Assembly (NCBI GenBank): GCA_016197225.1
Contig: JACPWC010000124.1
Coordinates: 1-33,636, forward strand
Direction of reading: 5' to 3'
From: Chloroflexota bacterium
Lineage (GTDB): Bacteria; Chloroflexota; Anaerolineae; Anaerolineales; VGOW01
Length of the DNA: 33,636 bases
The notes under the pieces are model-generated. The model was not told the DNA's origin. It worked only from the letters and a program-made list of their open reading frames with translations, and did not search any database. The position numbers were made by a program, and so were the translations under genes. Positions 3,811-27,081 of this stretch are shown piece by piece (positions within the stretch are counted from its first letter, which is position 1; each line of letters starts with the position of its first letter).

Positions 3811-3840
3811 ATCGTCTCTAAACGACCTCAGTAAAACTCA

Positions 3841-3879
3841 ATGCACAGCATTCCACTTTTTGGGCAGAATGCTGTGCAT
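3841..3879 (-). other. 13-bp perfect hairpin between cpaB and tadZ
   Basis: A perfect 13-base inverted repeat, ATGCACAGCATTC at 3841-3853 and GAATGCTGTGCAT at 3867-3879, encloses a 13-base loop. It fills most of the 87-base gap between the stop of cpaB and the start of tadZ. No clear run of T follows it in the direction of transcription, so it is more likely an attenuating or mRNA-stabilising or processing structure than a full intrinsic terminator. It would separate the highly transcribed pilin/cpaB part from the assembly genes. Confidence 0.6.
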
Positions 3880-3897
3880 GACAAGTAACGAACTAGA

Positions 3898-8756: not shown

Positions 8757-10276
8757 CGTATGACCTCAAACAATTTCACATCGCCTTCGCGCCTGATCAA
8801 TCGAAGCCACTCTGTGCCATCATTTTCATACAGCGGAATTAAGCCGGGCGTGATATTTTGATCCATGACGATGTAGCGGACGTTGAATTGATCGGCGAGG
8901 GCGATCACGGTGTCCCCGTCACCGTTGGGCAACGGGATGCCGGGATGGCCCGTCGCAACCCACACGCCCGGCGGGTTGTTGCTCATCACCACTGCCTCCC
9001 GAGGCAGATCGCGCAGGAGGGCAAACATCGAATCTTCGCCCGATCCGCTCAGGCGTGGAATTGTCAAAGCAAGGGTAAGCGTGGCCGCAAGCGCAACGAC
9101 GAGGACGGTGAAATTGCGCTTGGCAACTTCGGGCTTCCAGTGTTTGAGGCGGGCGGCGATCCAATCAATCGTGGCGTCCAGCCCGATGAGGGCCGCCGGA
9201 AAATAAAATGGCATCAGCGCCGCCCCAGAGTGAAATAGGCCGCCTCGCATGCCTGGAAGGCTGAAGGCGAACGTCATCGCCGCGTACAGCAAAACCGCAT
9301 ACAGTGTCACGATTCGATAGAGCATGTGCTTCCGCAATTGCCACAAGCCAATGGCGATCAGCGGTGTGAGGAAAATCATTCCCTGCACGGCGACGATGGT
9401 TTGGAGATTGGAAATTAGAGATTGAAGTTTGCCGTCGAGAATCACGCTCCAGTCCGCCGCAAAATATCGCGCCGGAGTCAAGTTTGGCGGGTAGTTGAAG
9501 ATGTCGTTATATTCAATCAACCACAATGTTCCCGCCCCGCCCACGCCGAACGGCGAGCCAGCAACAATGAAGTTGCGGATGAACCAGGGGAGCATGACGA
9601 GCAGGTAGCCGACAACGACGGATGACGAATGACGAATGACGAATGACCGTCCCTTGCCGCCGAACAACTCCTGACCAATTGTCCACAAGACTAAGAGCAA
9701 CAACACCAACACCCCATCCGCCCGCGTGAGGTGCGCCAGCCCGGCGCACGCCCCCGCCGCAATAACTAACCTCCAATCCCCAATCTCCAATCCTCGCCAC
9801 AAGGCGACAAAAGTTAAACTGACCACGACCGCATACAGCGCAAACGAGTCCGTCGTTCCCCAGTAGATTGCATAGAAGCCGCAAAAGATGGCAAGCAGTC
9901 CGGCGGCGAGGGCATGACGGCGGAGGCCGGTGGTGAGTAGTGAACAGTGATAAGTGATCAGTGGGAGGAGGCTGGCGATGAGGATGAGCGGCAGGCGCGC
10001 CGCCGCGAACGACTGCCCAAAAGCCATCATCGAGAGTGCGGCAATGATGGAGGTAAGCGGCATCCAGTATAGATGGCTGGGTTGAGGTAATGCCGTTGGG
10101 TTGCCAAGATAATTCCACAAATACGGCTCAGTGAAGCCCTCCCCACTCGCCAGCCGCAACGCGCCGCCGAAATAATAGGCATCGTCCACGTACCACGGCC
10201 CGGAGACGAACGAGGCGAGGGCAAAATTGAAGATCAACGCCAGGAAGAAGAGGAAGAAAAGATCGCGGCGAGGCAT
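8753..10276 (-). CDS. GT39/ArnT-like membrane glycosyltransferase with four intragenic heptad repeat arrays
   Basis: This is a 507-residue polytopic membrane protein. The N-terminal segment is followed by WYVDDAYYFGGALRLASGEGF (Asp31/Asp32), the GT-C acidic motif, and many hydrophobic segments. A soluble C-terminal domain of about 110 residues includes MSNNPPGVWVATGHPG and FNVRYIVMDQN, a form common in this group. The gene is unusual in holding four arrays of 7-base tandem units (9403-9430, 9617-9651, 9771-9791, 9936-9963). These encode polar, odd stretches such as LLPLITYHCSLLTTGL, EIGDWRLVIAAG, FVIRHSSSVV and LQSLISNLQT in loops or between membrane segments. It sits 12 bases after the preceding gene and overlaps the next by ATGA. 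Function is inferred from family only. Confidence 0.78.
   Translation of the reverse strand: MPRRDLFFLFFLALIFNFALASFVSGPWYVDDAYYFGGALRLASGEGFTEPYLWNYLGNPTALPQPSHLYWMPLTSIIAALSMMAFGQSFAAARLPLILIASLLPLITYHCSLLTTGLRRHALAAGLLAIFCGFYAIYWGTTDSFALYAVVVSLTFVALWRGLEIGDWRLVIAAGACAGLAHLTRADGVLVLLLLVLWTIGQELFGGKGRSFVIRHSSSVVVGYLLVMLPWFIRNFIVAGSPFGVGGAGTLWLIEYNDIFNYPPNLTPARYFAADWSVILDGKLQSLISNLQTIVAVQGMIFLTPLIAIGLWQLRKHMLYRIVTLYAVLLYAAMTFAFSLPGMRGGLFHSGAALMPFYFPAALIGLDATIDWIAARLKHWKPEVAKRNFTVLVVALAATLTLALTIPRLSGSGEDSMFALLRDLPREAVVMSNNPPGVWVATGHPGIPLPNGDGDTVIALADQFNVRYIVMDQNITPGLIPLYENDGTEWLRLIRREGDVKLFEVIR
9403..9430. repeat. Heptanucleotide array, GGAGATT family (4 units)
   Basis: Consecutive 7-base units GGAGATT, GGAAATT, AGAGATT and GAAGTTT lie inside the GT-C gene 8753-10276. 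They belong to the same family as the array at 9771-9791, but in the opposite orientation. Confidence 0.8.
9617..9651. repeat. Heptanucleotide array, GACGAAT family (3 perfect + 2 degenerate units)
   Basis: The units are GACGGAT, then GACGAAT three times without mismatch at 9624-9644, then GACCGTC. This is the most regular array in the window and so the best candidate for slippage. It lies in the GT-C gene 8753-10276. Confidence 0.9.
9771..9791. repeat. Heptanucleotide array, CTCCAAT family (3 units)
   Basis: Units CTCCAAT, CCCCAAT and CTCCAAT. Read on the other strand it gives ATTGGAG units like those at 9403-9430. It lies inside the GT-C gene 8753-10276. Confidence 0.8.
9936..9963. repeat. 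Heptanucleotide array, AxxAGTG family (4 units)
   Basis: Units AGTAGTG, AACAGTG, ATAAGTG and ATCAGTG all end in AGTG or TAGTG. It lies inside the GT-C gene 8753-10276. Confidence 0.8.
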
Positions 10277-10288
10277 CGAGCGTTACCT

Positions 10289-11788
10289 TCAACGCTTCAC
10301 GAACTCATAGACACGCAAGTCGCCAACATGGGTCGTGTTGCGCAAGGCATATTGCGACTCTAACCACGCCAAATGCGGATGTTGCTCCGGCGTAGCCTCC
10401 TCAATCGCCCGATCAAAGATGACGAACCACACCCGCCCCGCTCCTCGTGTCGCCGCCTCTGCATCATTCACCGCAAACAGCCCCAGCACCTTTTGCGTTG
10501 GCAGGGCCAGCGTGTCACTGCCCGAACCAGGCGGGTCGGCGAGAAACGATTGCGCCAGCGCGCGATCATAATAGTGCATTGGCAAAAACGTGAGCTTGTT
10601 GCTGTGCAGAATCACATCACCCGGCCCGGCGCTTTGCCGGAGGAAGGCGACAGCGGCTGGAAAGTCCGGGCGTGGGAATCGGGCGAAGGTGTAGTGCGCC
10701 CACAGCCCGGCGATGGCCGTAACTGCCAGCAGGCCGCCCAACACGATACGGATCAAGGTCGGCATCGCCGCCTCTGCCAGCAACCAGCCAAGCGCGATGG
10801 AATACGTCAACGAAGCAGGCAGGAGCGCGCGTTGAATGTAAACAGGCTGATAGAGTGAGGCCAGGAACAACAAAAGCGGCGTGCCGACAGCCAAAGCCGT
10901 CAGCCACAGCGCGTTTTTTGTTGAAGCTTCCCGCCGCTGTTTAAGAATTTGCCATCCCAGAAAAACAGGCAATACAACAGCTGTGAACAAAGCCAATGGC
11001 AACAAAGCTCGCGCCGCCACCAATTCCTCTCCGGCATGATAGACCAACAAGGTCTGCAGAAGCGTCACAAAATCGGGGCGCGTTACCCAGTAGGCCTGTT
11101 GAAGTTTGGCGAACTGCCCCGGCAGGTTGAGGAACCAGGGCAACCACAAAGCAAAGGCCGCCACGCCCGCCGCCGCCATTTTCGCAAATACTTTCGGGCG
11201 GCGCAAGGTGCTCAACCCAAACGCCAGCAGGAAGAACGCCGCCAGGTTTTGCATATACACCGCCAGCGCGGCACTCAGAGCAAGGCCAAGCCAATTGCGT
11301 ATTTGGTATTGCGTATTCCGTGCCGCGTAGAGGAAAAAGAGGACAGTGAGGGCGCAGAACAACGTCAACGGCGCATACATTCGAGTCTCTTGCACGTAAT
11401 ACACCTGAAACGGTGAAACCGCCACAATCAACATCCCGACAGTGGCGGCCCAACCGTTGAACAATCGCCGCCCAATCGCGTAAGCAACGGCCACCGTCAG
11501 CAATCCGGCAAACACGGACAGCAGTCTGGCAGAAAATGGCGACCCTCCAAAGACCTGCATCCAACCCTTGAGGGCAGTGTAATAAGCAACTGGGTGAACG
11601 TCGGACGCCGCGCCCGCAACTGGCGTGAGCGTGCCAGCCAGCATGGCGCTAAAACCCTTCTCGGCAAACAGCACGGCAAACGCTTCGTCGTACCACAGCG
11701 GGCGCGTGTTGAGGGCGACCGAGCGCAAGGTGAACGCCAGCAACAAAACGCCGAACGGCAAAATTCTACGGCCCATCTTGCACTTCAT
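10289..11788 (-). CDS. ArnT/GT39-like membrane glycosyltransferase
   Basis: This is a 499-residue polytopic membrane protein of the ArnT/PMT (GT39/GT83) type. The first segment is followed by RPLWYDEAFAVLFAEKG with the Asp34-Glu35 pair typical of ArnT-like enzymes, then DVHPVAYYTALKGWMQVFG and SPFSARLLSVFAGLLTVA. The second loop has a YVQETRMYA motif (compare YSQEARMY in family members). About ten to twelve membrane segments and a C-terminal soluble region follow. A heptad array at 11294-11321 encodes the polar stretch AARNTQYQIRNW. The start overlaps the stop of the preceding gene by 23 bases; an in-frame ATG four codons later (11776) is a possible alternative. Donor is probably a polyprenyl-phosphate sugar; acceptor unknown. 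Confidence 0.85.
   Translation of the reverse strand: MKCKMGRRILPFGVLLLAFTLRSVALNTRPLWYDEAFAVLFAEKGFSAMLAGTLTPVAGAASDVHPVAYYTALKGWMQVFGGSPFSARLLSVFAGLLTVAVAYAIGRRLFNGWAATVGMLIVAVSPFQVYYVQETRMYAPLTLFCALTVLFFLYAARNTQYQIRNWLGLALSAALAVYMQNLAAFFLLAFGLSTLRRPKVFAKMAAAGVAAFALWLPWFLNLPGQFAKLQQAYWVTRPDFVTLLQTLLVYHAGEELVAARALLPLALFTAVVLPVFLGWQILKQRREASTKNALWLTALAVGTPLLLFLASLYQPVYIQRALLPASLTYSIALGWLLAEAAMPTLIRIVLGGLLAVTAIAGLWAHYTFARFPRPDFPAAVAFLRQSAGPGDVILHSNKLTFLPMHYYDRALAQSFLADPPGSGSDTLALPTQKVLGLFAVNDAEAATRGAGRVWFVIFDRAIEEATPEQHPHLAWLESQYALRNTTHVGDLRVYEFVKR
11294..11321. repeat. Heptanucleotide array, ATTGCGT family (4 units)
   Basis: Units ATTGCGT, ATTTGGT, ATTGCGT and ATTCCGT, followed by a more degenerate GCCGCGT. 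It lies inside the GT-C gene 10289-11788. The same family occurs at 19210-19237 and, inverted, at the start of the array 26096-26144. Confidence 0.8.
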
Positions 11789-13400
11789 AAATAGTCGTCA
11801 GCTCATTCGTAAAAACTGGTTGCAAAAAAACGGGCGGTTGAAAACCGCCAAGCTCTTTTTCTACCGGGCCGTAGAATACGTAGCGACAGGCGCAGGCGGC
11901 CAGCACGGCTCGCCGCTCGTCGTCGGTCATTGGCCCGCCAAAGAACTTTGCCGCCTGCTCTACCTTCAGCGTGTAATAAGCCGTCTCAATTGGATGGCCC
12001 AGGTAAACTCGATGCCCGATTCGGGCCGGGATAAGATTGCCGGTTCGCTCGGCTGAAAATACAACGTCCTGCCAGTCAGAATTTTGGCCTAGCCAGTCAA
12101 TGGCCTGAGTCACATCTGCCGAAACAAAAATCTTTGGCGAACGAGCCAGGGCTGGCAATGCGCCGCCAAACGTAAGATAAAGTGTTGACTGAGCGGAAAA
12201 GACGACGACAAGAATGATGAGTAGCCCACGCGCCCGCCGGTAAGGGTAGCCGACTCTGGCCAACCACTGTTTGAGGCCGTTCAACCGTCGTAGCTGAGGC
12301 AAGAGGCCATTGCCCAAGCCAATGGCGGCTAACACGGCCAGCGGCCCCATCACACCTTCGGTGAAGCGGCGCTGGAAATTTGTCGGCAGATAGATCAGAA
12401 TCATCACGGCAATGATCCAGGCCAATAACAAACGCCCTTCCCCCGACCGGCGGCGAATGACATGCCACGCGCCCCAGACCGCCAACGCGCCGGGCAGGCC
12501 CACGCCCAAAAGATAGTAAATTGGCGGCGGAGAAGAGATGAATTGTTGATTTTGCCTGGCAAAGCTTTGCCACACTGGGTGACGAAAGACAGTGGCCGAA
12601 TAAATAAGTAAGGGCAAATGAACGGCAACGAGCGCGGCCAGACTCCAAAATTCGCGCCACACCAATCTGCGCTTACTCAACCAACCCCAGACAACATATC
12701 CCGCCAATCCCAAATCCACGATCAGCGGCGCAAAAGGTTGAATGGCTTGAACCATCACGATTGTCACCAGTCCGACGACTAGCCATCGCTGATCGCCCTT
12801 TTGCCAAAAAACAAGAAAAGATAGCGCCGTTGTCCACATCAACGCGAAGACTGCTGAAAAGTGTGGAAAGACCATGAGGCTGAAGAAGCCATAAAGATCG
12901 ATCAGCCAGAAATCAAGGGCGACTACGTCGCGGTCCGGTTGCCAGCCGAAGATCAACATCAGCCAACCCAGCCCGGAACCGAGAGCGAAGACGAGGAACG
13001 CAATGCGCCGCAAGGCAACTGACCACAAGAAGCGCGCAGCAAACGCGTACATAGTGAACAAGGCCCACAGGCCAAATAGCCAACGCGCCATTTCGAACAA
13101 CGCCGGCGGCGGCAGAGGCAAGATGCGACCCGCCTGCCCAACGGCAATGTAAAACGTCTTGACGTAGGCTTGAGGAATTATTTCCGACGAATGCAGAAGC
13201 GGATACTGCCACGAACCGCGCAAGCCGGTTTGGATGCTGGCCAAGTGGACGTTGTAATCGGGGAAGTCGTACACAGCGCCGATGAAAACTTGATCCGGGG
13301 TTTGGCTAATGTAGCCGGCAATGATCGGCGCTGACGATATCAGCAGAACCAGAAGGCTGGTCATAACCACCCAGACCTTTTCAGAGCGCTTCACAGACAT
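11766..13400 (-). CDS. Uncharacterised polytopic membrane protein, GT-C-like (paralogue A)
   Basis: This is a 544-residue protein with about ten membrane segments and no close named relative that I recognise. The first outer loop has GAVYDFPDYNVHLASIQTGLRGSW (Asp48), followed by HSSEIIPQAYVKTFYIAVGQ. It is clearly homologous along its length to the next upstream gene (13450-15093). Shared features are an Asp-x-Asn-Val-x-Leu-Ala core, a GSGLGWLM segment, a QRRF motif near residue 345, and a C-terminal CRYVFYGPVEKELGGF (the paralogue has CRFLFYGPAERQLGAF). The overall plan (acidic first loop, many segments, soluble C-terminus) suggests a GT-C transferase, but the usual Asp-Glu pair is absent. 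It is separated from its paralogue by 49 bases. Confidence 0.7.
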   Translation of the reverse strand: MSVKRSEKVWVVMTSLLVLLISSAPIIAGYISQTPDQVFIGAVYDFPDYNVHLASIQTGLRGSWQYPLLHSSEIIPQAYVKTFYIAVGQAGRILPLPPPALFEMARWLFGLWALFTMYAFAARFLWSVALRRIAFLVFALGSGLGWLMLIFGWQPDRDVVALDFWLIDLYGFFSLMVFPHFSAVFALMWTTALSFLVFWQKGDQRWLVVGLVTIVMVQAIQPFAPLIVDLGLAGYVVWGWLSKRRLVWREFWSLAALVAVHLPLLIYSATVFRHPVWQSFARQNQQFISSPPPIYYLLGVGLPGALAVWGAWHVIRRRSGEGRLLLAWIIAVMILIYLPTNFQRRFTEGVMGPLAVLAAIGLGNGLLPQLRRLNGLKQWLARVGYPYRRARGLLIILVVVFSAQSTLYLTFGGALPALARSPKIFVSADVTQAIDWLGQNSDWQDVVFSAERTGNLIPARIGHRVYLGHPIETAYYTLKVEQAAKFFGGPMTDDERRAVLAACACRYVFYGPVEKELGGFQPPVFLQPVFTNELTTIYEVQDGP

Positions 13401-13449
13401 GATAATAAATCAGCCTGACACGAATCGGATGGACGGTGACACGCAAGGT

Positions 13450-15093
13450 TCACCGCTGAGGTCTTAGTTCGTAAATTTCCACATTCGAGGTGGAAAAGGC
13501 AAATTTAAGATAAGGGGCTGTGGCCGGGTCGAAAGCCCCCAACTGACGTTCGGCAGGGCCATAGAACAAAAAGCGACAACCCATTGAGCGAACGAATTGT
13601 TCTCGCCGGGCATTGCTCGTACCAGCATCGAATATCTGAAAGACGGCATCCTGCTTGGCATAGAAATCTATCGTCAAATTCCAATGGCCGATGCAAGTGC
13701 GCGCTCCGCTGCGAGCTGAAATGTAATTCCCAGTTTCGTAAGCGGCAAGCGTTAAATCGTCAACATGGGATTCGCGGCCAAGCCAGTCGGCGGCTTGGGC
13801 AACACCGGCAGGCACAAACATTGCTGGCGAACGAAACCAGGCCGAAAGGGTATAGCCTGTCACCAGCAAAATATTGGAGATCGCGGCCAGGGCCAGTATC
13901 AGATTTATCATCAGTAATCTGAAGCGTCGCGGGTGATAACGCCGCGCCAGCCACCGGGAAAAACGGGAGCGTTTCAATGCCGGCAATACAACTGCGGTCA
14001 GGCCAATTCCGGCCAAACCGGCCAATGGAACTTGCAAGCCCATAATGAACCGTCGTTGGATTTGCACCGGCGCATAAAGCATTACCCCGCCTATGATCAA
14101 CCAGGCTACTAACGGCAACTCGGGCAAGCGCATTCTTCGCAACACGCATACCAGCCCGAAACAGGCCAGCAAACTGCTAACTCCAAAACCCAGGGCATAG
14201 TATTGGAATGGAGGCGACAGGGTAATGTCTTGCCGCGCCAGCGCCGCAAATACAGAGTCGGTCCGAAGCGCAAAAGCATAGTAGAGCGCAACTGGAGCAA
14301 CCCCGGCGCCTGCCGCACCCAATACGCTGAAAATCGTAACGGCACGCTCTCGCCTCTTCCATGCAAGCAGGATGGCACAGACAAAAGCTATGATCCCTGC
14401 CCCGGGGACGATTTTGGGATGTACCACAGTCAGCGCCAATCCTACGCCAAAGGCAATCAATAGCAATTTGGGTTTCGGCGAAAACGCAGAGCGGTGAATG
14501 CTTGTGAGCAGGGTCAACATTAGCGCCCAGGCGATTGCAAAGTGCGGCACAAGCAGGATCGAGAAAAACGCGAAAGCATCCATCAACCACAAATCGATCC
14601 CGGAGATACCTTCAGGGCCGACCGGCATTACAACCTGCATCAACCAGCCAAGGCCCGACCCGATACACACCAGTAAGTAGGCAATCTTCCGCGCCGCCCG
14701 CCAGGCGACATGCGCCGACAGATAATCATAGGCGGCCCACAACATCCACAAGCCGCCCAAGCCGCGCGCTAAATGATAACCAACCATCGGTGACAAACCC
14801 GAGACTCGGCTGATCTGCCCCAGTACAATGTAAAACTCATACAGGAACATAGGCGAATGCGCCTCTACCGAATAAGGCAAGGTCATCAACCAGGCGCCGC
14901 GCCAGCCTTGTTGTAGGATGGCCAGATAAACGTTAGCATCTATTGAATTGAAAAGAGTGCCGGTGAACCTAAGCTCTGAAGTTTGCCGATACCATCCCGC
15001 CAGATAAGGCACATAGGTTATGGCGACAGTGATAAGCGCCACTTTTATGACCCACCATCGTTCTTTTGAGCGCGATGTGCTTGAAAGTTTCAC
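13450..15093 (-). CDS. Uncharacterised polytopic membrane protein, GT-C-like (paralogue B)
   Basis: This is a 547-residue membrane protein and tandem paralogue of 11766-13400. The frame is open up to 15249, but GTG at 15093 is preferred: it overlaps the stop of the preceding gene as GTGA and gives an N-terminus that aligns with the paralogue. The first outer loop reads GTLFNSIDANVYLAILQQGWRGAW (Asp52), then LYEFYIVLGQISR. A GSGLGWLM segment, an IQRRFIMGLQVPLAGLAG region and a C-terminal soluble domain (YETGNYISARSGARTCIGHW, CRFLFYGPAERQLGAF) follow. Function is unknown; GT-C fold membership is inferred from topology and operon context. Confidence 0.7.
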   Translation of the reverse strand: MKLSSTSRSKERWWVIKVALITVAITYVPYLAGWYRQTSELRFTGTLFNSIDANVYLAILQQGWRGAWLMTLPYSVEAHSPMFLYEFYIVLGQISRVSGLSPMVGYHLARGLGGLWMLWAAYDYLSAHVAWRAARKIAYLLVCIGSGLGWLMQVVMPVGPEGISGIDLWLMDAFAFFSILLVPHFAIAWALMLTLLTSIHRSAFSPKPKLLLIAFGVGLALTVVHPKIVPGAGIIAFVCAILLAWKRRERAVTIFSVLGAAGAGVAPVALYYAFALRTDSVFAALARQDITLSPPFQYYALGFGVSSLLACFGLVCVLRRMRLPELPLVAWLIIGGVMLYAPVQIQRRFIMGLQVPLAGLAGIGLTAVVLPALKRSRFSRWLARRYHPRRFRLLMINLILALAAISNILLVTGYTLSAWFRSPAMFVPAGVAQAADWLGRESHVDDLTLAAYETGNYISARSGARTCIGHWNLTIDFYAKQDAVFQIFDAGTSNARREQFVRSMGCRFLFYGPAERQLGAFDPATAPYLKFAFSTSNVEIYELRPQR

Positions 15094-17821: not shown

Positions 17822-17824
17822 AAT

Positions 17825-19249
17825 CTACTTGCCAATTATCACCAAAGCCAGGCCGGTGAAGCTCCGCACTTCCAGTGGCGCGCCGGGGTTGTCCAGCCGC
17901 CACTGTTTGAAGAACGATGGGCCTTCGGTCAGCGGATCGAACGGCGCTGACTTGCTCAGGGCATGCGCCGACTCATGCGGGCTACGCAGGACGAGCACGA
18001 ACGGCCCTTCGGCCAGTCGGGCGTTCAAGTCGGCGGTGTTGCGAGCAAAGGCAAAGTTAAGCGGCGTGGTCACGTAGGGAGTGATCCCCAAAAGCGATTC
18101 GCCGTCGGGCAGGCCGACAGTCAGGTTTTCAGAATACAACACCTGGGTTGCGCCGCGCCAGTCTTCCTTGGCAAAGACAGGCTCAGTATAGAGCCGAATC
18201 GAACCAAGCAAAAGATAACTTGTAACCAGCAAGATAACTGCCAGCCTCAGGCCTCGCTGGAAATTCGCCAGCGCCGCTGATGAGAGCAATGCTACCGAGA
18301 GGAGAGCCGGCTCAAAAAAACGATCAATGTAGGCAGGCAAGCGAAGCGAAAACAGCCAGGCGGTCGTGATGGGCAAGGCCAGCCACCACAACAGCAACTG
18401 CGCCTCACGAGTCCCGGTGCGCGTGCCTAGCACTAGCAATATAATGACGATTGCAACACCCACGACGGCAAACGCCGTCCACCCCGCCGTATCACCTCTG
18501 ACAAAGTTCCACAAAGTTTTGAGAGGCGTTGTGAGTGAGATTTCCGGTATCCAGGTGTTAGCCGTGAGCGGCTGGCGCTGGGCAAGAAAGGCCAACACCC
18601 AACCTGCCACTGGAATGACGGCCAGGGCTTGGGCCAATGCCCATTTGCGAAAGACAAGAGGCTGGCGGCGCAATTGAGTCAGAATATAAACAGCTTGCGC
18701 GTACACAAACAAGGCTGACACATACTGAGTCACATAAAAGGCCGCGCTGGCGGCAATGAACACCACCCAGCTTTTGCCGCGCTCAGCCTGCCAGAAACAC
18801 CAAAGCACCAACCCGCCCAAAAACAGATAGAGGCCGTAAGGCCGCGCATCCTGCGAATACCACACGGCAAACGGCGAGAAGGCAATCAAGGCCGCCGCTG
18901 TCACGCCAGTGGCGGCGTTGAACGTCGCCCGGCCAAGCTGGTAAGTGATCGAAATTGCCAACCAGCCGAAGAACGCGCTCGACAGTCTCAGGCCAAACTC
19001 GCGCGAGCCAAACAGCGGCACGGCAAGTTTGGTAATCACGTAAGGCAAAGGTGAGACATCGCTCACAACCAGCATCGCTTTCCAAACATCGGCCCAACTT
19101 GTCTTCACGGCCACGCCCCAGGTGTAGGCTTCGTCCACCCAAAAACTGCGCGCGCCCAGCTCGTGAACGCGAAGAAAGAAGCCTATCAACAGAATAACAA
19201 GCATGATGTACTGCGTATTGCGTGTTGCGTATTGCTGTTTGATCTTCAA
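17825..19249 (-). CDS. ArnT/GT39-like membrane glycosyltransferase with repeat-encoded N-terminus
   Basis: This is a 474-residue polytopic membrane protein. After the first segment it has RSFWVDEAYTWGVAVKTSW with the Asp39-Glu40 pair of ArnT-like enzymes, then SPLPYVITKLAVPLFG and SREFGLRLSSAFFGWLAI. The second loop has WYSQDARPYGLYLFLG, the usual family motif. About twelve hydrophobic segments are visible. The first 15 residues (MKIKQQYATRNTQYI) are encoded partly by a heptad array at 19210-19237. An in-frame ATG after the array (residue 16, MLVILLIG) could be the functional start in variants. ATG 19249 overlaps the previous stop (ATGA). Confidence 0.85.
   Translation of the reverse strand: MKIKQQYATRNTQYIMLVILLIGFFLRVHELGARSFWVDEAYTWGVAVKTSWADVWKAMLVVSDVSPLPYVITKLAVPLFGSREFGLRLSSAFFGWLAISITYQLGRATFNAATGVTAAALIAFSPFAVWYSQDARPYGLYLFLGGLVLWCFWQAERGKSWVVFIAASAAFYVTQYVSALFVYAQAVYILTQLRRQPLVFRKWALAQALAVIPVAGWVLAFLAQRQPLTANTWIPEISLTTPLKTLWNFVRGDTAGWTAFAVVGVAIVIILLVLGTRTGTREAQLLLWWLALPITTAWLFSLRLPAYIDRFFEPALLSVALLSSAALANFQRGLRLAVILLVTSYLLLGSIRLYTEPVFAKEDWRGATQVLYSENLTVGLPDGESLLGITPYVTTPLNFAFARNTADLNARLAEGPFVLVLRSPHESAHALSKSAPFDPLTEGPSFFKQWRLDNPGAPLEVRSFTGLALVIIGK
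19210..19237. repeat. Heptanucleotide array, ATTGCGT family (4 units)
   Basis: Units ACTGCGT, ATTGCGT, GTTGCGT and ATTGCTG. It covers codons 5-14 of the GT-C gene 17825-19249, directly after its start and before the first membrane segment. This is the best-placed array for an on/off frame switch. Confidence 0.8.
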
Positions 19250-20706: not shown

Positions 20707-21659
20707 TCAGGGCTTTCGTTGGCGGCTGATTTAGAGACGGGCGGCGCTCGCAACATCCACCATACCAATGCCGGAAATCCCAGCGCCAGCCATTTTAGCC
20801 CGCTATTAAAAATTAGCGGGATGAGGAGCAACCATGTCCCGGCCCACAAAATTAAGCGCCTGGTTCCCTTCACTCTGCCCAGGGCAGGCAAAAGCAAAAC
20901 AAAATGTTGAGGCATGAGGAATGGCGACAGAAAACTCCCGGCGGCCATCAGCGCCAGAGGGTCTGGGGGCGTTTGTGCAAGCAAGGTCAAGCCAATGGCA
21001 ATCATGGGCCATCCTAAACTGGCCCAGCCAAAGGCGGACGGATGTTGAATGCGATCGGTGACGCTCCCAAGCACACGCGTCGGCCAAAACTGCCACACCA
21101 CGAGTGTCAATAATCCGAAGGCCGCCGCCCATATAATCCAGGAGCGACGCGATAGCACTGCCCACAGGCCTAAATGAGGTTTGAGCAACACCCAGGGAAT
21201 CCCAACCGGCATCATTAACATCCCCCAAAGCGCAACTGCTTCAATGTTGCCGACCCATAGCAGAATCATAGTTGGCGGGGTGAATAATGCCAACAGCACA
21301 CAGCCCAGCGCATTGCTGGTCAGGCGCCAGGCAGGCCGCCGCTCCCCGCCGAAAACTTCACGCGCTACCGACACGGCCACTGTCATCAACAATAGCGCAT
21401 TCAATCCGGCCAGGCCCGTTCGCCAGGGCAGTGCGAGCAGAGGCGCAAGCGCCCATTCTATCCAGGGCGGGTATTGCCGAAAGTCGCGCGCCCAAAAATA
21501 TACACGCCAATCAAACCCCAGCATCGGGAGTTGATGGGTGAGCGGCCACAATAACAGCGCCCCTGCCAGCACAGCCAAAGCTGATCTCCAATCGGGTGGC
21601 TCCGCTCTCAACCAATTCTCGCGCCAACCCAGCCGCCAGCGCCGCGTGCTAGTCATCAT
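20703..21659 (-). CDS. GT87/DUF2029-like membrane protein
   Basis: This is a hydrophobic protein of 318 residues when started at ATG 21659, which has AGGAGA six bases upstream; a second ATG follows at once (21656), and a longer frame to 21677 lacks a site. The N-terminal region has MLGFDWRVYFWARDFRQYPPWIEWALAPLLALPW, resembling the GT87 pattern of an Asp-containing first loop followed by a P-P-x-x-x segment. A VLLKPHLGLWAVLSRR block matches the family K-P-x-x-G-L motif. About eight membrane segments are seen, shorter than typical GT87 proteins (about 400). Its start overlaps the YfhO-like gene by 11 bases. Confidence 0.65.
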   Translation of the reverse strand: MMTSTRRWRLGWRENWLRAEPPDWRSALAVLAGALLLWPLTHQLPMLGFDWRVYFWARDFRQYPPWIEWALAPLLALPWRTGLAGLNALLLMTVAVSVAREVFGGERRPAWRLTSNALGCVLLALFTPPTMILLWVGNIEAVALWGMLMMPVGIPWVLLKPHLGLWAVLSRRSWIIWAAAFGLLTLVVWQFWPTRVLGSVTDRIQHPSAFGWASLGWPMIAIGLTLLAQTPPDPLALMAAGSFLSPFLMPQHFVLLLPALGRVKGTRRLILWAGTWLLLIPLIFNSGLKWLALGFPALVWWMLRAPPVSKSAANESPE

Positions 21660-23844
21660 GCCGTCTCCTGTTGGCAACTTCGATAATCACCCATACCATC
21701 AGTCCAGCCAACGAGGCGAGCGAAACCGGCCAACCGATGCGCCAGCCAAGCGGGTTGTAACTCAACCGGATATGGTGTTGGCCGCTCTCCACGGCCACAC
21801 CTATCAATGCCTCTTCCACTCGTTGGGTTACTACCGATTTTCCATCCACCGTTGCCTGCCAACCTGGCAACCAGGTTTCGCTCACCACCAGTTGACTGGG
21901 TTCGAGCGCCAACACCTTCAGCTCATATTCACCTGCGCCCCGCTTCACGATCTCTACAGTGCCATCACCCTTCAACCGGGCGCGCGGTTGCCAAAGCAAG
22001 TTCTCATAAACCCAGTCCTGTTCATGATGAAACACTGCTTTCAGGTTTAGATCGGAGAGGATGTATGGAGCGACAATGTAACGAACATTCAAAAGCCCCA
22101 ATCGGTAGGCGTCCGGCACAGAGGTCGGGGTGATATCGTCCAGGCAAACGGGGATGGAGGTGGAATGGCCCGGCCGGTTACAGCCTGTAGCCAATCGGAT
22201 TGCCGTGACAGTATGTTCTATTTGAAATCCTATTTGCCCTTCCAGCAGATCAACATTGCGCTCAGCCGCAAGTGAAAATGGGATGTCGCCGGGTGGCGAG
22301 TACACTCTAAAAATGCCGGGTTGAGCCGTCACAAAATCGAAGGCGGGCGTAGAGGTTAAGAACTCAGCGCGGGGGTTGACCAGCCGCAAATGGTCTGTCG
22401 CCAAAGGCAGCAGATCCAATAACAAGACAAGGATCAACAGCCACTGAAATACGCGCCCACTGATATACCTTTTGAGCCAAACCCAACCCGCCGCGGTCGC
22501 GGCTATCATCACTGCCAATTGAACAACGAGTTGCCAGTGCCACTGTTGGAATAGCGCATAATAAGCAAGAAACGCCGCCATGCCACCCACAAAATAAACC
22601 CCGGCCAGTCGGAGGAGCCACTGTCGCCGTGGCCCCCATTGCCAGCGCAGGCCATCATGGTTAAGCGCTTCAACTCCCAGCCCTGCCAACAATGACGCCG
22701 CCAACCCGCCGAAAAACCAGAGCCGCGTTGGCACACGCAATAGCCGGAAGCCAGGAACGATCGCCAACGTTAAGCCAAACAATGGCGTGCTGGCCCCCAG
22801 GCTATAGACCAAAGCAAAGGCTACTAGCAATATCAACTGCCATTTGATGCGGCGCGGGGATATGCGCCAGCCAATGATAGCCAACAAAGGCGTCAGCACG
22901 CCTAAAAAAATTGTCCATTCGTGGAGATGTGTCCGCGGCGGGGCTAACAACGTAAAGAGCAACTCTGGCGGCAGGGCATAGGCGTTGGCGTCTGCAAGAG
23001 TGTAATTGGCCCGGCTATTGTAAGGCATCAATTCAATCAACGGGGCCAGCACCGCCGCGGCGAAAAGCGCAAAGGAGGCAATCATCACCCCATAAATTGC
23101 GGCCAGCCGCGCGCCCTCACGCCAACCTGCTGGTTGGCCGCCGACTGCTCGCCAAAAAGCCGGAGCGAAACGCCAAAGCCAGAATAGGGAAACCACAAAC
23201 AGAGTGTAGAGAGGAATGTAAACGTGCGCCGGCAATTGCAGAGCCAAAGCCAGCCCAGCGAGCGCCGCCGCCAACAGCGAACCGTCGAGCGCCAGCTTGA
23301 ACGCCAGCAATACTGCTGGAACCCAGGCCAGCCCAGCCACTGTGCCAATATGCCCCACAGCCAAATGCGCCATCATTTTAGGGGCAAAGGCAAAACTGAG
23401 ACCTCCTAGTAGTGCCGCCGGGCGTGACGTATTGCCGCCGACGCGCAACAAAAGAAACGTGAAAACTCCGGCCAGAAAAACGTGCGTCGCGTCGAAGATA
23501 TTAAACGCCAGTTCCGGAGGCAAAAAGACGAAAACTATATTAAGCGGATAGATGAATGCCGTGTCGGTGTCGCCGGCTAATGGCCGCCCCAGGGCCATTT
23601 GTGGCGCCCATAGCGCAAGTTGCCCGGCCCGCAAATGCGCCGCGAACTGCGTCAACTGGTGCCAATGAAGCCCGGAGATGTCAGAGCCTAAACCTGGTTG
23701 AGACCAGATGATGGAATCTGGAGTGACAAAGGAAGGCCAAAAGAACAGACCCGTAATCAACGCCAATAACAGAATTGACGCGCTATCTCGCTCAGCCCAT
23801 TGCTCTATTGCTTGTTGTAGCCTGGCCGTCATCATTTGAGTCAT
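21649..23844 (-). CDS. YfhO-family membrane protein (full-length copy)
   Basis: This is a 731-residue protein of the YfhO family, large membrane proteins implicated in envelope glycopolymer glycosylation. The first outer loop has TPDSIIWSQPGLGSDISGLHWHQL (Asp55), then GRPLAGDTDTAFIYPLNIVF and the family-like GLSFAFAPKMMAHLAVGH. About twelve membrane segments are followed by a long extracellular domain from about residue 480, with GIFRVYSPPGD and, near the C-terminus, VVSETWLPGWQATVDGK and RVEEALIGVAVESG, typical of YfhO. A last membrane segment and RRRHDD tail close the protein. ATG overlaps the previous stop (ATGA). A truncated homologue lies at 32540-33496. Confidence 0.88.
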   Translation of the reverse strand: MTQMMTARLQQAIEQWAERDSASILLLALITGLFFWPSFVTPDSIIWSQPGLGSDISGLHWHQLTQFAAHLRAGQLALWAPQMALGRPLAGDTDTAFIYPLNIVFVFLPPELAFNIFDATHVFLAGVFTFLLLRVGGNTSRPAALLGGLSFAFAPKMMAHLAVGHIGTVAGLAWVPAVLLAFKLALDGSLLAAALAGLALALQLPAHVYIPLYTLFVVSLFWLWRFAPAFWRAVGGQPAGWREGARLAAIYGVMIASFALFAAAVLAPLIELMPYNSRANYTLADANAYALPPELLFTLLAPPRTHLHEWTIFLGVLTPLLAIIGWRISPRRIKWQLILLVAFALVYSLGASTPLFGLTLAIVPGFRLLRVPTRLWFFGGLAASLLAGLGVEALNHDGLRWQWGPRRQWLLRLAGVYFVGGMAAFLAYYALFQQWHWQLVVQLAVMIAATAAGWVWLKRYISGRVFQWLLILVLLLDLLPLATDHLRLVNPRAEFLTSTPAFDFVTAQPGIFRVYSPPGDIPFSLAAERNVDLLEGQIGFQIEHTVTAIRLATGCNRPGHSTSIPVCLDDITPTSVPDAYRLGLLNVRYIVAPYILSDLNLKAVFHHEQDWVYENLLWQPRARLKGDGTVEIVKRGAGEYELKVLALEPSQLVVSETWLPGWQATVDGKSVVTQRVEEALIGVAVESGQHHIRLSYNPLGWRIGWPVSLASLAGLMVWVIIEVANRRRHDD

Positions 23845-25469
23845 GGGAGGTGCGCCGCTGAATTTTCCTTCAACGTTATTTCTCGCGGCGCAACTTTACG
23901 CGACAGGCCATAAAAAACGTGAAAGTCGCCAATAGATGTTTCGTTGTATGTCACTCCTAAACGGTCAAATTCAGATCGAAGCCGCCCATCGAGTGGCGGG
24001 TGATTGGTAGTGATGTAGGCCGCCCGGTCGCTGGCGGCTACCGCCGCAGTGTAGGGCCGGTAGCGATCATCGCGGGTTGTATAACTGAAATCGAGATGAT
24101 AAGGCAGCGCCGCCGAGCAAAGAATGGTCTCGTTCGAAAGAAAGGCGATCGGAAATGTCACCCAGTAATTGCTGTAGCAACGAGTCTCGCCCTGCGCTTT
24201 CAGGAAATCAATCACGGCTGGCAGGTCGCGCTGATCCACTTGCGCCACTTCGTCGAACTGGGTGGTGAAGCCGGGTGGGAAATTGAGCATGGCGTCCGCG
24301 TTGCCCCAAAGGTTGAAAGAGAGGATCAAAGCCAACAAGGCTACGGCGGCTCGTGGGTATTCGCGGCGGGCGCGATTCAACAGGTCGGCAATGAAGAGAG
24401 CCATTGGCGTTGCCAGCGGCAAAAAATATCGGCCCGACGGATCGGCTCCGAACGGTGTGACAATGAAGGCGACGACGACGACGATACAGATGCTGAGCAA
24501 CAACGCTCGCTTCCAATCATGCAAACTCAATTTGGCCGCCCGCCCGACAGCGCCCATAAACAACACTAGCACTATTGGCGCAAGCGGCAGGGCCAGCCAG
24601 CGCACTGCCCAGGGCGGGCGAAGGCCGATGATGACCGGCAAGCCTAACACGACGAAGGCAAATAGATGTAACAGCGGCCCGCTGGAAGCATTGGCAATCG
24701 CCGAGCCGCCCAGTTCGCTGATAGTCTCCGCCCCAAACAGCGTAGCCCACCACCACGGCGCACTGCCAAGCGCAAAACCCATCAGAGCCGACAAATAATT
24801 CGCTACAGAGTCCACAGAGAGCACGAAGAAAAATCGTGTTGTTTCTTTGCGATCCCTGTGTTCTCTTTGGTGAAGAATCAGCGCAATGCCAATTGGCAGA
24901 AGATAGACTCCGAGCAGGCCAAACGCCCAAAAGCCGAACCCGGCCAACACCCCAAACAACAGCCATTCAAGGTAGGGGCGGCCCTGTGTGGCCGCCCTTT
25001 CCCGCAGCCGGATCGTCCATAACAACAGCACGTTGCCAATCAATAGCGTCTCGCCGTAGCCGCCGAGCGTGGCGGTCGTGTACAGCGTTTCCAGCACTGT
25101 CGGCACGGCCAGCAGAAGCACGGCGGCAGTCGCCGTCCAGCGGTCGGCAAAAATTTTGAGTCCGAGCAGGTAAGTCGTTGCAACCGTGCCAAGATAAAGC
25201 GCCGCCTGCACAACCCGAATCGCCAACACACTCTGGCCAAAGAGCAAAAACGCGCCGGCAATCAGCCAGGCATCCAAACTGCCCAGATACGCCTGCCCAT
25301 AAAAAAACACCGGGCGCTCGCCCTGCAAAATGTGCCGCGCCATCAACGCCACCACTGCTTCGTCGGCGTTGAAAGGCGTGACATCCAGAACCAGGATGAC
25401 GGCCTTCAATCCGGCGGCCAGGGTTAGCGCCACCCACAAACCGATATTGTCTCGTATAATCGCTCGCAT
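23841..25469 (-). CDS. GT39-like membrane glycosyltransferase with embedded inverted-repeat elements
   Basis: This is a 542-residue polytopic membrane protein and the first gene of the 11-gene operon. The first segment is followed by VTPFNADEAVVALMARHILQ (Asp36-Glu37) and PVFFYGQAYLGSLDAWLIAG, a pattern of GT39-like proteins. The following loop has TLYTTATLGGYGETLLIGN. About twelve membrane segments and a C-terminal soluble domain (RCYSNYWVTFPIAFLSNETI) follow. Two inverted-repeat elements are carried in frame: 24971-25000 encodes part of RAATQGRPYLEW, and 24801-24875 encodes HQREHRDRKETTRFFFVLSVDS, both unlike membrane-protein sequence. No strong ribosome site precedes ATG 25469, whose first two bases are shared with the divergent start of the plus-strand gene. 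Confidence 0.82.
   Translation of the reverse strand: MRAIIRDNIGLWVALTLAAGLKAVILVLDVTPFNADEAVVALMARHILQGERPVFFYGQAYLGSLDAWLIAGAFLLFGQSVLAIRVVQAALYLGTVATTYLLGLKIFADRWTATAAVLLLAVPTVLETLYTTATLGGYGETLLIGNVLLLWTIRLRERAATQGRPYLEWLLFGVLAGFGFWAFGLLGVYLLPIGIALILHQREHRDRKETTRFFFVLSVDSVANYLSALMGFALGSAPWWWATLFGAETISELGGSAIANASSGPLLHLFAFVVLGLPVIIGLRPPWAVRWLALPLAPIVLVLFMGAVGRAAKLSLHDWKRALLLSICIVVVVAFIVTPFGADPSGRYFLPLATPMALFIADLLNRARREYPRAAVALLALILSFNLWGNADAMLNFPPGFTTQFDEVAQVDQRDLPAVIDFLKAQGETRCYSNYWVTFPIAFLSNETILCSAALPYHLDFSYTTRDDRYRPYTAAVAASDRAAYITTNHPPLDGRLRSEFDRLGVTYNETSIGDFHVFYGLSRKVAPREITLKENSAAHLP
24801..24875. repeat. Intragenic imperfect inverted repeat of the CACAGAGA type
   Basis: Arms 24806-24831 and 24842-24867 pair imperfectly over 26 bases (about 18-19 matches) with a 10-base loop. 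The arms are rich in ACACAG/AGAGA words. Similar CACAGAG-type dispersed hairpins are familiar in many environmental bacterial genomes, mostly between genes. Here it lies in frame inside the GT-C gene 23841-25469. Confidence 0.6.
24971..25000. repeat. Intragenic perfect hairpin of the GTAGGGGCGGCC type
   Basis: GGGCGGCC at 24976-24983 and GGCCGCCC at 24990-24997 form a perfect 8-base stem with a 6-base loop. It is preceded by GGTAG, like the dispersed GTAGGGGCG repeats seen in many bacterial genomes. It is embedded in frame in the GT-C gene 23841-25469. Confidence 0.6.
25455..25460 (+). promoter_or_regulatory. -10 box for a possibly leaderless plus-strand transcript
   Basis: A perfect TATAAT at 25455-25460 ends seven bases before the ATG at 25468, so transcription would begin at or next to the A of the start codon. 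No ribosome site lies before that ATG, which fits leaderless translation. No good -35 was seen. Confidence 0.5.
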
Positions 25470-27081
25470 GGCCGGGAAAGGAAGCTCGAAGTTATCGTTT
25501 GACGTTCGCGCGCTTTTCGCGGGCTGTGCCTCACGTTTTACGCCTTACATCCCTTTCTTTATTTTCGCCCTCGCCCTCTTCCTCCGCCTCCTGCCCGGCG
25601 AGCGCATGGTGGACGACGCTTACATCACCTTTCGCTACGCCCGCAACATCGTCAACGGCCTCGGCTTCGTCTACAACCCCGGCGAGCGAGTCATGGGAAC
25701 TACAACGCCGCTTTACACTCTGCTCATGGCCGGGCTGTCGTTCGTTCTCCGCACCCAAAACTTTCCTGCCCTCGCTCGCTGGGTCAACGCCCTGGCCGAC
25801 GCGGCCACCTGCGCCCTGCTCGTCTCCCTCGGCGAAACATTGAGCGGCCAACGGCGGGTGGGCATCGCCGCCGGGCTGATATATGCCGTCGCCGCCTTCA
25901 GCGTGACGTTTGCCGTCGGTGGCATGGAGACTTCGATCTATATTCTCCTGATCGTTCTCACCGCCCTGCTCTACCTGCGCCAGAACCCCGGTTGGGCCGT
26001 CGCCGCCACCCTGGCCCTCCTTACTCGCCCTGATGCGCTCATCTTCCTTGGCCCTCTCTGGCTCGACTACATCCTTCGCATCCTTCTCAAGCTCCGCAAT
26101 ACGAAATACGGAATTCTCAATTCACAATTCTCAATTCACAAAACAGTTGCTTTCTTCATCTTTCCACTTATCGTTTGGCTCCTCTTCGCTACCTTCTACT
26201 TCGGCACGCCCATCCCGCATTCCATTGCCGCCAAAAGCGTCACCTACCAACTCCAGCCCGAAGAAGCCTTCGTCCGGCTCTGGCAACACTACAGCACTCC
26301 GTTCTACGAGCAGGCCACCCTCTTCAACTTGCCCTACGGAAACTTCTGGCCCCTGCCCGGCATCGTCTTGTACTTATCACTTTATTTGATCAGCGCCCTC
26401 GCTTTCCTCCGCCGCGACTCACGGGCAACCGCCATCCTTCTTTACCCCTGGCTCTACTTCGCAACCTTCGCCATCGCCAACCCTCTCATCTTCCGCTGGT
26501 ATCTCACCCCGCCTCTGCCTTTTTATTTTCTCGGCCTCCTCGGCGGCCTCTCGCATATCGCAAACAGCTTATCGCAACGTCTTACGTCTTACGTTTTACG
26601 TTTCACGTTCCCGGCTCTTTGCGCCCTCTTCATCTTCTTCTCCCTCCGGGCCTGGGTGCTTGCGCCCGATCACGGCCCAGCCCGGCCCGCGCCCGACATG
26701 GCCTGGTTCAAACTCGAGCAACTTTACACGCAAGTCGGCAAGGAACTTGCGCCACAACTCACGGCGCAAACCGTCATCGCCGCCGGCGACATTGGCGCGC
26801 TTGGCTACTTTTCCGGCGCTCGCATTCTCGACACCATCGGTCTCGTCTCGCCCGAATCCGTGCCTTACTATCCTTTGCCAAAAGATCAGCTTGTTATCAA
26901 CTACGCCATCTCCGCCAACCTCATCGCCGACCGCAAACCCGATTACGTCGTCTTCCTCGAAGTTTATGGCCGCAAAACCCTGTTGGCCGATTCCCGTTTT
27001 ACTGCCAACTACACTCTCATCAAAAAGATCGCAACTGACATTTATGGCAGTGACGGGATGCTGGTGTATCAACGCAAGTAA
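25468..27081 (+). CDS. GT-C membrane glycosyltransferase-like protein, DDAY type, with three heptad arrays
   Basis: This is the only plus-strand gene. ATG 25468 gives 537 residues; the open frame reaches 25330, but that extension lies inside the divergent gene. The first segment is followed by GERMVDDAYITFRYARNIVNG (Asp49/Asp50), then GFVYNPGERVMGTTTPLYTL, a pattern of GT39-like proteins. About ten membrane segments follow. The C-terminal soluble domain has AAGDIGALGYFSGARILDTIG and LVSPESVPYY, shared with 7362-8756. Heptad arrays at 25529-25549, 26096-26144 and 26580-26607 encode ASRFTPY, RNTKYGILNSQFSIHKT and QRLTSYVLRFTF. The stop codon abuts the stop of the converging gene 27082-28044. 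Confidence 0.82.
   Translation: MAGKGSSKLSFDVRALFAGCASRFTPYIPFFIFALALFLRLLPGERMVDDAYITFRYARNIVNGLGFVYNPGERVMGTTTPLYTLLMAGLSFVLRTQNFPALARWVNALADAATCALLVSLGETLSGQRRVGIAAGLIYAVAAFSVTFAVGGMETSIYILLIVLTALLYLRQNPGWAVAATLALLTRPDALIFLGPLWLDYILRILLKLRNTKYGILNSQFSIHKTVAFFIFPLIVWLLFATFYFGTPIPHSIAAKSVTYQLQPEEAFVRLWQHYSTPFYEQATLFNLPYGNFWPLPGIVLYLSLYLISALAFLRRDSRATAILLYPWLYFATFAIANPLIFRWYLTPPLPFYFLGLLGGLSHIANSLSQRLTSYVLRFTFPALCALFIFFSLRAWVLAPDHGPARPAPDMAWFKLEQLYTQVGKELAPQLTAQTVIAAGDIGALGYFSGARILDTIGLVSPESVPYYPLPKDQLVINYAISANLIADRKPDYVVFLEVYGRKTLLADSRFTANYTLIKKIATDIYGSDGMLVYQRK
25529..25549. repeat. Heptanucleotide array, TTTTACG family (3 units)
   Basis: Units CCTCACG, TTTTACG and CCTTACA, in codons 21-28 of the plus-strand GT-C gene, just before its first membrane segment. 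It is the same family as 26580-26607 and fairly degenerate. Confidence 0.6.
26096..26144. repeat. Longest heptanucleotide array, GCAATAC/TCAATTC family (7 units)
   Basis: Seven consecutive 7-base units over 49 bases: GCAATAC, GAAATAC, GGAATTC, TCAATTC, ACAATTC, TCAATTC, ACAAAAC. The first units are the reverse complement of the ATTGCGT family and then drift to TCAATTC. It lies in the plus-strand GT-C gene. Confidence 0.85.
26580..26607. repeat. Heptanucleotide array, TCTTACG family (4 units)
   Basis: Units TCTTACG, TCTTACG, TTTTACG and TTTCACG, in the plus-strand GT-C gene near residue 375, between the last membrane segments. Confidence 0.85.

Follow-up and report, generated by a model that had tools for sequence, protein, structure and literature searches.

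Arrays of tandem 7-base units lie inside glycosyltransferase genes of this genome, and they raise the question of whether these genes could be switched off and on by gain or loss of a unit, or whether the arrays reflect a process of another kind. We addressed this question in the window, that is the whole stretch of 33,636 nt analysed, in a scan of 1.606 Mb of the same genome and in orthologous genes.

Period-7 arrays in the window and in the genome

By scoring lag-7 matches out of 21, we found values between 15 and 20 at eight sites (9399, 9617, 9765, 9930, 11294, 19208, 26112 and 26576), which are real arrays (Table 1). The sequence-only reading had listed nine, all within four GT-C genes; eight of them hold, while the one at 25529 is not an array. 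Seven lie inside three GT-C genes, and the eighth, claimed at 19210, belongs to an intercistronic spacer upstream of the likely ATG. The GT-C class is defined by PMT_2 or a related Pfam domain together with many membrane helices; a PF13231 match above cut-off was found for the genes 8753–10276, 10289–11776 and 17825–19204, the gene 25468–27081 having no Pfam match. The pilus locus of the window is free of heptamer arrays, as had been stated.

Table 1. Features of the window (positions in the 33,636-nt stretch; scores are lag-7 matches out of 21; G002, G003 and G004 are genomes with orthologues)
Feature	Position	Strand	Score	Basis or state in orthologues
GT-C glycosyltransferase gene, PF13231 (PMT_2), 507 aa, four arrays	8753..10276	-		Pfam 26.9 bits and gene call
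Period-7 array, ATTGGAG family, weakest real one	9396..9435	-	15/21	Orthologues without array at this site
Period-7 array, GACGAAT (coding strand GTCATTC), longest perfect run 3.7 units	9609..9654	-	20/21	CATTGTT array in G004; none in G002, whose protein is shorter
Period-7 array, CCAATCC family	9761..9800	-	16/21	Partial array in G004, length unchanged
Period-7 array, AxxAGTG family	9916..9968	-	16/21	ATCACGT array at identical residues in G003
GT-C glycosyltransferase gene (PF13231)	10289..11776	-		Pfam 63.4 bits, scored on a slightly longer frame; one array too in the G004 orthologue
Period-7 array, ATTGCGT family	11289..11328	-	16/21	
GT-C glycosyltransferase gene (PF13231), ATG at 19204, no internal array at 16/21	17825..19204	-		
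Intercistronic spacer, 41 bp, mostly GCAATAC-family array ending beside the ATG	19205..19245	-	18/21	
Polytopic GT-C-like gene, 537 aa	25468..27081	+		No Pfam match; weakly resembles terminal arabinofuranosyltransferase model
Site of claimed array 25529, just two similar words, no array	25521..25548	+	10/21	
Period-7 array, CAATACG words then AATTCTC/AATTCAC words	26092..26148	+	18/21	Other words in G002 and G003
Period-7 array, TTTTACG family	26571..26619	+	19/21	Different words in G002, G003 and G004

Codon shuffling within the window genes, with arrays counted at ≥16/21, yielded a mean of 1.02 arrays against 7 observed. This mean is made up of the spacer array at 19208, which shuffling leaves untouched, and of about 0.02 from coding DNA, where 6 arrays were observed. 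Chance, codon usage or protein-level periodicity, from which periods 3, 6, 9, 12 and 15 in coding DNA do originate, is thus given practically no weight as the source of the heptamer arrays, all the more as the enrichment of period 7 is found chiefly outside genes.

Confinement to glycosyltransferase coding sequence, which had been proposed from the window and is nearly true there, proved false at the scale of the genome. The scan found 199 period-7 arrays, 68 of them coding and 131 intergenic, although intergenic DNA represents only 13.5% of the scanned DNA; there, the density reaches about 60 arrays per 100 kb and period 7 dominates. Tandem 7-base units thus occur at many genomic sites, chiefly intergenic, as do STRR-like repeats. 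Gaps of 60–100 bp hold 68 of 107 arrays, and co-directional gaps are richer in them than convergent ones (0.97 vs 0.34 per kb), a location that led us to reject intrinsic terminators as an interpretation.

The arrays share a vocabulary. A total of 220 arrays use 95 canonical words, so the genome does not rely on one or a few fixed words, and these words recur strongly, with 437 same-word array pairs vs 45 by shuffling. One heptamer word was found in many phyla, often with an inverted partner. A G-quadruplex reading was discarded (only 6/220 arrays are G4-capable). The suggestion that several word families point to a common 7-base process rather than to one ancestral repeat is therefore borne out by the number of words and by the dominance of period 7 in intergenic DNA, and our best reading is a heptamer-array process that is both lineage-wide and cross-phylum.

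GT-C genes as coding hot spots and their orthologues

Within coding DNA, the density is 52 arrays per 100 kb for GT-C (PF13231) genes compared to about 2.7 for other genes, about 20-fold higher, and 13/30 GT-C genes bear arrays vs 24/926 of the others (P = 3e-12). The congener G004 repeats this excess (55 vs 3–10 per 100 kb). Hence, the softer claim of a GT-C enrichment among coding sequences stands genome-wide and in a second species, even if intergenic spacers are the main home of the arrays. Equal density in intergenic DNA and in other genes, with no unit-number variation within or between strains, had been named as the outcome that would refute the proposal; half of it was observed, since spacers are as dense in arrays as GT-C genes, whereas other genes are far lower.

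What could account for the GT-C bias? First, overall divergence does not account for the bias, as non-GT-C genes in the same 60–70% identity bin have no arrays. Second, a hydrophobic peptide cannot be its sole cause: the peptides encoded by arrays score lower in hydrophobicity than the protein as a whole (0.24 vs 0.42) and other polytopic proteins contain few arrays. The lack of arrays in non-GT-C genes of equal identity, together with their scarcity in polytopic proteins, suggests that a GT-C property beyond general laxity may matter. Third, in the gene 8753–10276, the only one for which conservation was measured, the array columns in array-free homologues are gappier and less conserved (26% vs 35% identity). 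Finally, GT-C genes from relatives outside the genus are almost devoid of arrays, so that tolerance would become visible only where arrays get made. In Calothrix, 8 GT-C genes contained no array.

Phase variation, by which gain or loss of a 7-base unit would switch GT-C genes like contingency loci of pathogens, had been put forward from the frame shift that such a change causes. The genes do encode surface-related glycosyltransferases and are truly enriched in arrays. However, phase-variable heptanucleotide tracts of the HMW1A and neuO type are long and pure, whereas the arrays found here are short and impure: perfect runs in coding arrays do not exceed 3.9 units (median 2.1), so that none amounts to a long, near-perfect tract prone to slippage. 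The four GT-C genes compared, like their orthologues in congeners (one genome per species), all have open frames, and no stop was found inside 40 PF13231 matches. In addition, individual GT-C genes harbour several arrays at once, and arrays are equally dense in spacers. Between congeners, the word changes rather than the number of units: in orthologous GT-C genes, the arrays share their protein positions while words and lengths differ, the frame being kept in every case, and several of these arrays replace sequence without changing its length. The copy number of coding arrays shows no clear peak at the values expected from in-frame growth (1+3 units). Together, these data make on/off switching very improbable.

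We therefore favour, as the probable explanation, a lineage-wide process making heptamer arrays, of which GT-C segments under loose constraint would tolerate those that preserve the frame. Such a process would generate short degenerate tandem arrays from a limited dictionary of heptamer words, presumably by slippage and perhaps with the help of hairpins. The GT-C hot spots would correspond to helix and loop segments accepting many sequences, where arrays, as in untranslated spacers, could survive provided that they introduce no stop codon and leave the frame intact. GT-C arrays would then be slow-evolving passengers and not fast on/off switches.

Complementary arrays in spacers

Of the intergenic arrays, 81% have a complementary partner no more than 60 bp away, compared to 25% in controls. 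In its typical form, a co-directional spacer of 60–100 bp is filled by two complementary arrays, and the potential hairpin reaches the next start codon. SD-like 4-mers are found in 13% of array gaps vs 45% of other gaps. These spacer hairpins may act on mRNA between genes, either on its stability or on a translation start without SD.

That they are RNA elements selected for mRNA stability, attenuation or translation start, coding arrays being by-products, would fit their position in short co-directional spacers, beside the start codon and without SD, as well as the folding of array gaps beyond shuffles (median z -3.96) and the hairpins retained with a changed word in some orthologous spacers. 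Nevertheless, other co-directional gaps also out-fold shuffles (z -2.19), many orthologous spacers have no hairpin at all, and convergent gaps, the place for terminators, are array-poor. Half of the GT-C arrays have no nearby partner either, and the spacer of the window folds too weakly to be a hairpin. Taking these observations together, we consider this explanation as quite unlikely. Compensatory changes in one orthologous spacer (2 pairs altered on both sides, 3 broken) involve too few pairs to be used.

Complementary heptamer arrays could also be inserted, with a preference for GT-C genes, by a dedicated element that is either mobile (REP/REPIN-like) or copied from a hairpin template. This possibility draws on the word dictionary common to many loci, on the complementary arms at a single locus, on the partner within 60 bp found for half of the GT-C arrays vs 17% in controls, and on the same word recurring in many phyla. 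However, the spacer hairpins have no common consensus or constant ends, the words differing between spacers, and the substitution of GT-C sequence at unchanged length by several arrays speaks against insertion. Moreover, the arms match by word but not by individual unit, since pairing is just as good in registers shifted by 7, which does not support an upkeep of the palindrome unit by unit. The genome has two genes of the Y1 transposase family (PF01797), neither with adjacent heptamer hairpins, and no link to RAYT was seen. Such an element is thus possible although rather unlikely. A bolder proposal, which we regard as unlikely, is that a dedicated process crossing phyla writes complementary heptamer pairs into spacers and, in array-rich lineages, keeps rewriting the same GT-C segments, the enzymes being diversified by repeated in-frame replacement of helix or loop segments.

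Relation to known repeats

Heptamer arrays in bacteria are an observation decades old that, to our knowledge, still lacks a mechanism. Elhai and co-workers (2008) reportedly described, in Nostoc, small dispersed repeats of 21–27 nt embedded in tandem heptamers, tandem heptamers being a common genomic background, as here. Heptamer arrays are already known; in the literature searched, neither their paired-hairpin form in spacers nor their hot spots in GT-C genes seem to have been described. With a common dictionary, complementary spacer pairs and fixed GT-C sites with word turnover, this genome offers a tractable system on the origin of period-7 repeats. Heptamer arrays in glycosyltransferase genes should not be read as phase switches, and array spacers are low-complexity DNA that annotation may misread as coding.

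Heptanucleotide tracts occur in phase-variable genes such as HMW1A of Haemophilus influenzae (PMC8262952) and neuO of E. coli K1 (PMC13001214). The arrays described here share with them the seven-base repeat and, in part, the location in surface-related genes, but consist of 3–5 impure units, several per gene, in open frames. REP, BIME and REPIN palindromes are small intergenic hairpins with many copies per genome (PMC3116915, PMC3733652), and the spacer hairpins resemble them in size, place and number. Unlike them, they have heptamer-periodic arms, no shared consensus and no array-flanked RAYT-like gene found in the genome.

The TAACTGA direct repeats of Beggiatoaceae, Cyanobacteria and Bacteroidetes come as 2–6 units that run up to the start codon, where a ribosome-binding site is mostly lacking, and are mixed with related 7-mers; one word is favoured there, and inverted pairs are nearly absent (PMC4679880). 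Here too, arrays end at the start codon, mostly without ribosome-binding site, and AACTGAT arrays are present; the word dictionary and the hairpins set them apart. Finally, the heptanucleotide repeats of cyanobacteria and Xanthomonas (STRR of Calothrix and Nostoc; GGGNATC repeats) have few degenerate units, are dispersed, chiefly intergenic and mostly between co-directional genes, and differ in sequence and length between close relatives at one site (PMC4692102). The arrays of this genome have all these features, namely degenerate 7-base units, dispersed and chiefly intergenic location, co-directional neighbours and variability at a fixed place, but instead of one G-rich word they use many words, with paired complementary arms and a strong GT-C bias in coding DNA.

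Heptanucleotide arrays in the window and across the genome

Tandem Repeats Finder detects imperfect arrays of 7-base units in the window, as does a lag-7 match scan (scored as matches out of 21); the sequence-only reading had placed nine of them inside four genes for GT-C membrane glycosyltransferases. Eight of these sites scored 15-20, and the one at 25529, with 10 of 21 matches, was rejected as an array. Since the array at 19210 falls in a spacer directly upstream of an ATG, it is not inside a gene, and seven arrays in three genes stood. Genes were called with a home-made caller whose model is built on 3-periodic hexamers; coding arrays scoring 16 or more numbered six in the window, compared to ~0.02 after codon shuffling within genes.

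Coordinates of arrays, genes and hairpin spacers (window positions unless a locus is given)
Position	Feature	Details
3811-3897	Spacer between two pilus-locus genes	Non-periodic hairpin ATGCACAGCATTC / GAATGCTGTGCAT, z -3.9
8753-10276	Array-bearing gene	PF13231 protein
10289-11776	Array-bearing gene	PF13231 protein
19205-19245	41-bp spacer with array 19210	Immediately 5' of ATG at 19204
25468-27081	Array-bearing gene	Polytopic product, no Pfam match, weak similarity to arabinofuranosyltransferase model
26571-26619	Array site, words in four species	TTTTACG; TAGCTGA; AAATCTC; AAACTTC/CCAATCT
L009:9684-9769	Period-8/-9 hairpin spacer	
L010:15957-16035	Period-8/-9 hairpin spacer	
L011:14371-14455	Period-8/-9 hairpin spacer	
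L012:11923-12000	Period-8/-9 hairpin spacer	
L013:6762-6836	Period-8/-9 hairpin spacer	
L019:8606-8707	Period-8/-9 hairpin spacer	
L074:3884	Differently worded hairpin of congener G004	Shares place with a period-8/-9 hairpin
L031:2626-2814	189-base heptamer array (congener G003)	Adjoins GT-C gene; longest seen; GCGTATT/GCGTGAT words mixed
L049:3111-3146	Array in housekeeping gene	
L077:2484-2546	Array in housekeeping gene	

The window is one entire contig, or nearly so, among the 126 that make up the 4.81-Mb genome. We sampled one third of this genome (1.606 Mb in 101 pieces), mostly by taking the opening 20 kb of contigs C1-C95, with a small bias from a few stretches picked for the GACGAAT word. 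The sample holds 199 period-7 arrays at 16 of 21 or more, 68 in genes and 131 intergenic, the latter within the non-coding 13.5% of the DNA (~60 per 100 kb). Therefore, the proposed confinement to glycosyltransferase coding sequence is wrong. Period-8 arrays (52/75 intergenic) and those of periods 10 and 14, the latter a multiple of 7, also lean towards intergenic DNA; periods 6, 9, 12 and 15 are coding-type signals. Arrays also occur within conserved housekeeping genes (phosphoenolpyruvate carboxylase, Thy1-domain protein).

Paired arms and shared words

Array density was 0.97 per kb in co-directional gaps, compared to 0.34 in convergent and 0.19 in divergent ones, and gaps of 60-100 bp (n = 221) hold 68 of 107 arrays. 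In many cases the spacer runs, from stop codon to ATG, as array, short loop and complementary array. Of the intergenic arrays, 81% have a complementary partner no more than 60 bp away (shuffled controls, 25%), and the two halves pair with a median of -25.0 kcal/mol within the same gap and -10.7 between different gaps. Shifting the register by 7 leaves pairing just as good, so the arms match at the level of words and not of individual units. A Shine-Dalgarno-like 4-mer is found in only 13% of these spacers, compared to 45% of other gaps of equal size, and the spacers may have a function as RNA. In orthologous spacers of a congener, some hairpins are retained with changed words and others are missing.

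Hairpins whose arms have a period of 8 or 9 (for example GACAAGGT, or GACGCAAAG/CTTTGCGTC words) occur in further co-directional spacers of this genome, in some cases where G004 has a hairpin of different wording. Beside the two Y1 (REP-type) transposase genes, at L351 and L352 (frames of 176 and 584 codons), no heptamer hairpins were found.

Collapsed to canonical form, 220 arrays represent 95 words, with 437 same-word array pairs compared to 45 when letters are shuffled inside words. Where exactly two columns vary, these are adjacent in 50/76 arrays (25 expected). The GTCATTC word, arrayed over 27 bases, is present in at least 117 stretches across phyla (Verrucomicrobia, Bacteroidota, Cyanobacteria, Planctomycetes, Chloroflexi and others), with a chance expectation far below one by our own estimate. 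At 38 of the 117 loci an inverted partner lies within 90 bp. In the flanks of the 117 loci, 114 period-7 arrays score at least 17/21, compared to 0-17 for other periods.

Array excess and conserved positions in GT-C genes

Of the genome's 30 best PF13231 genes, which span 57.3 kb, 13 contain arrays, 30 in all (26 in 51.3 kb minus the window's four genes), compared to 32 arrays in 1.19 Mb of other coding DNA sampled outside the window (~2.7 per 100 kb). By gene, arrays are found in 13/30 GT-C and 24/926 other genes (P = 3e-12), and in a congener sample, mostly G004, in 6/10 and 7/194 (P = 3e-6). The expected GT-C enrichment is thus real among coding sequences, but does not extend over intergenic DNA. 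Other polytopic proteins showed no enrichment (3.0 arrays per 100 kb). Further array-bearing GT-C genes were found in congener G002 (2/9), a Promineifilum genome (2/9) and Prosthecobacter (1/4), and none among eight in Calothrix. GT-C homologues from other genera of the order have almost no arrays, and two stretches of 20 kb each from one genome outside the genus are free of them altogether; enrichment therefore tracks array-making lineages. PF13231 matches are unusually many in the source genome (40), G002 (35) and the Promineifilum genome G140 (36).

We aligned four genes with congeneric orthologues, using one genome per species. Arrays occupy matching residue positions in several species with differing words. 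Length differences at arrays are whole codons, several arrays substitute sequence at unchanged length, and reading frames are open throughout. In gene 8753-10276, the array columns show lower conservation and more gaps in array-free homologues of other families. All 13 arrays of the 60-70% identity bin come from three gene pairs, each GT-C or GT-C-like, and overall divergence was therefore rejected as the cause of the bias.

Phase switching of GT-C genes by slippage, as proposed from the sequence, requires longer, purer arrays and would produce frame-broken copies. However, perfect runs in coding arrays reach at most 3.9 units and no frame-broken copy was found among the genes compared with congeners, and we therefore favour an array-making process over switching. 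This process would be lineage-wide, with slippage as its putative maker, and its products would survive in untranslated spacers and loosely constrained GT-C segments, where frame acts as a filter. Such tolerance would account for the GT-C excess.

Known heptameric repeats

In the literature searched, which mostly excludes subscription journals, we found no description of paired-arm spacer hairpins or GT-C bias. Two studies (PMC4692102, PMC4679880) cite the proposal that the 7-base unit mirrors the DNA segment in contact with DNA polymerase. Heptameric repeats are over-represented in Nostoc and Xanthomonas and, like the arrays of the source genome, are chiefly intergenic (PMC4692102). In Beggiatoaceae, TAACTGA arrays with kin in Cyanobacteria and Bacteroidetes lie immediately upstream of start codons (PMC4679880).
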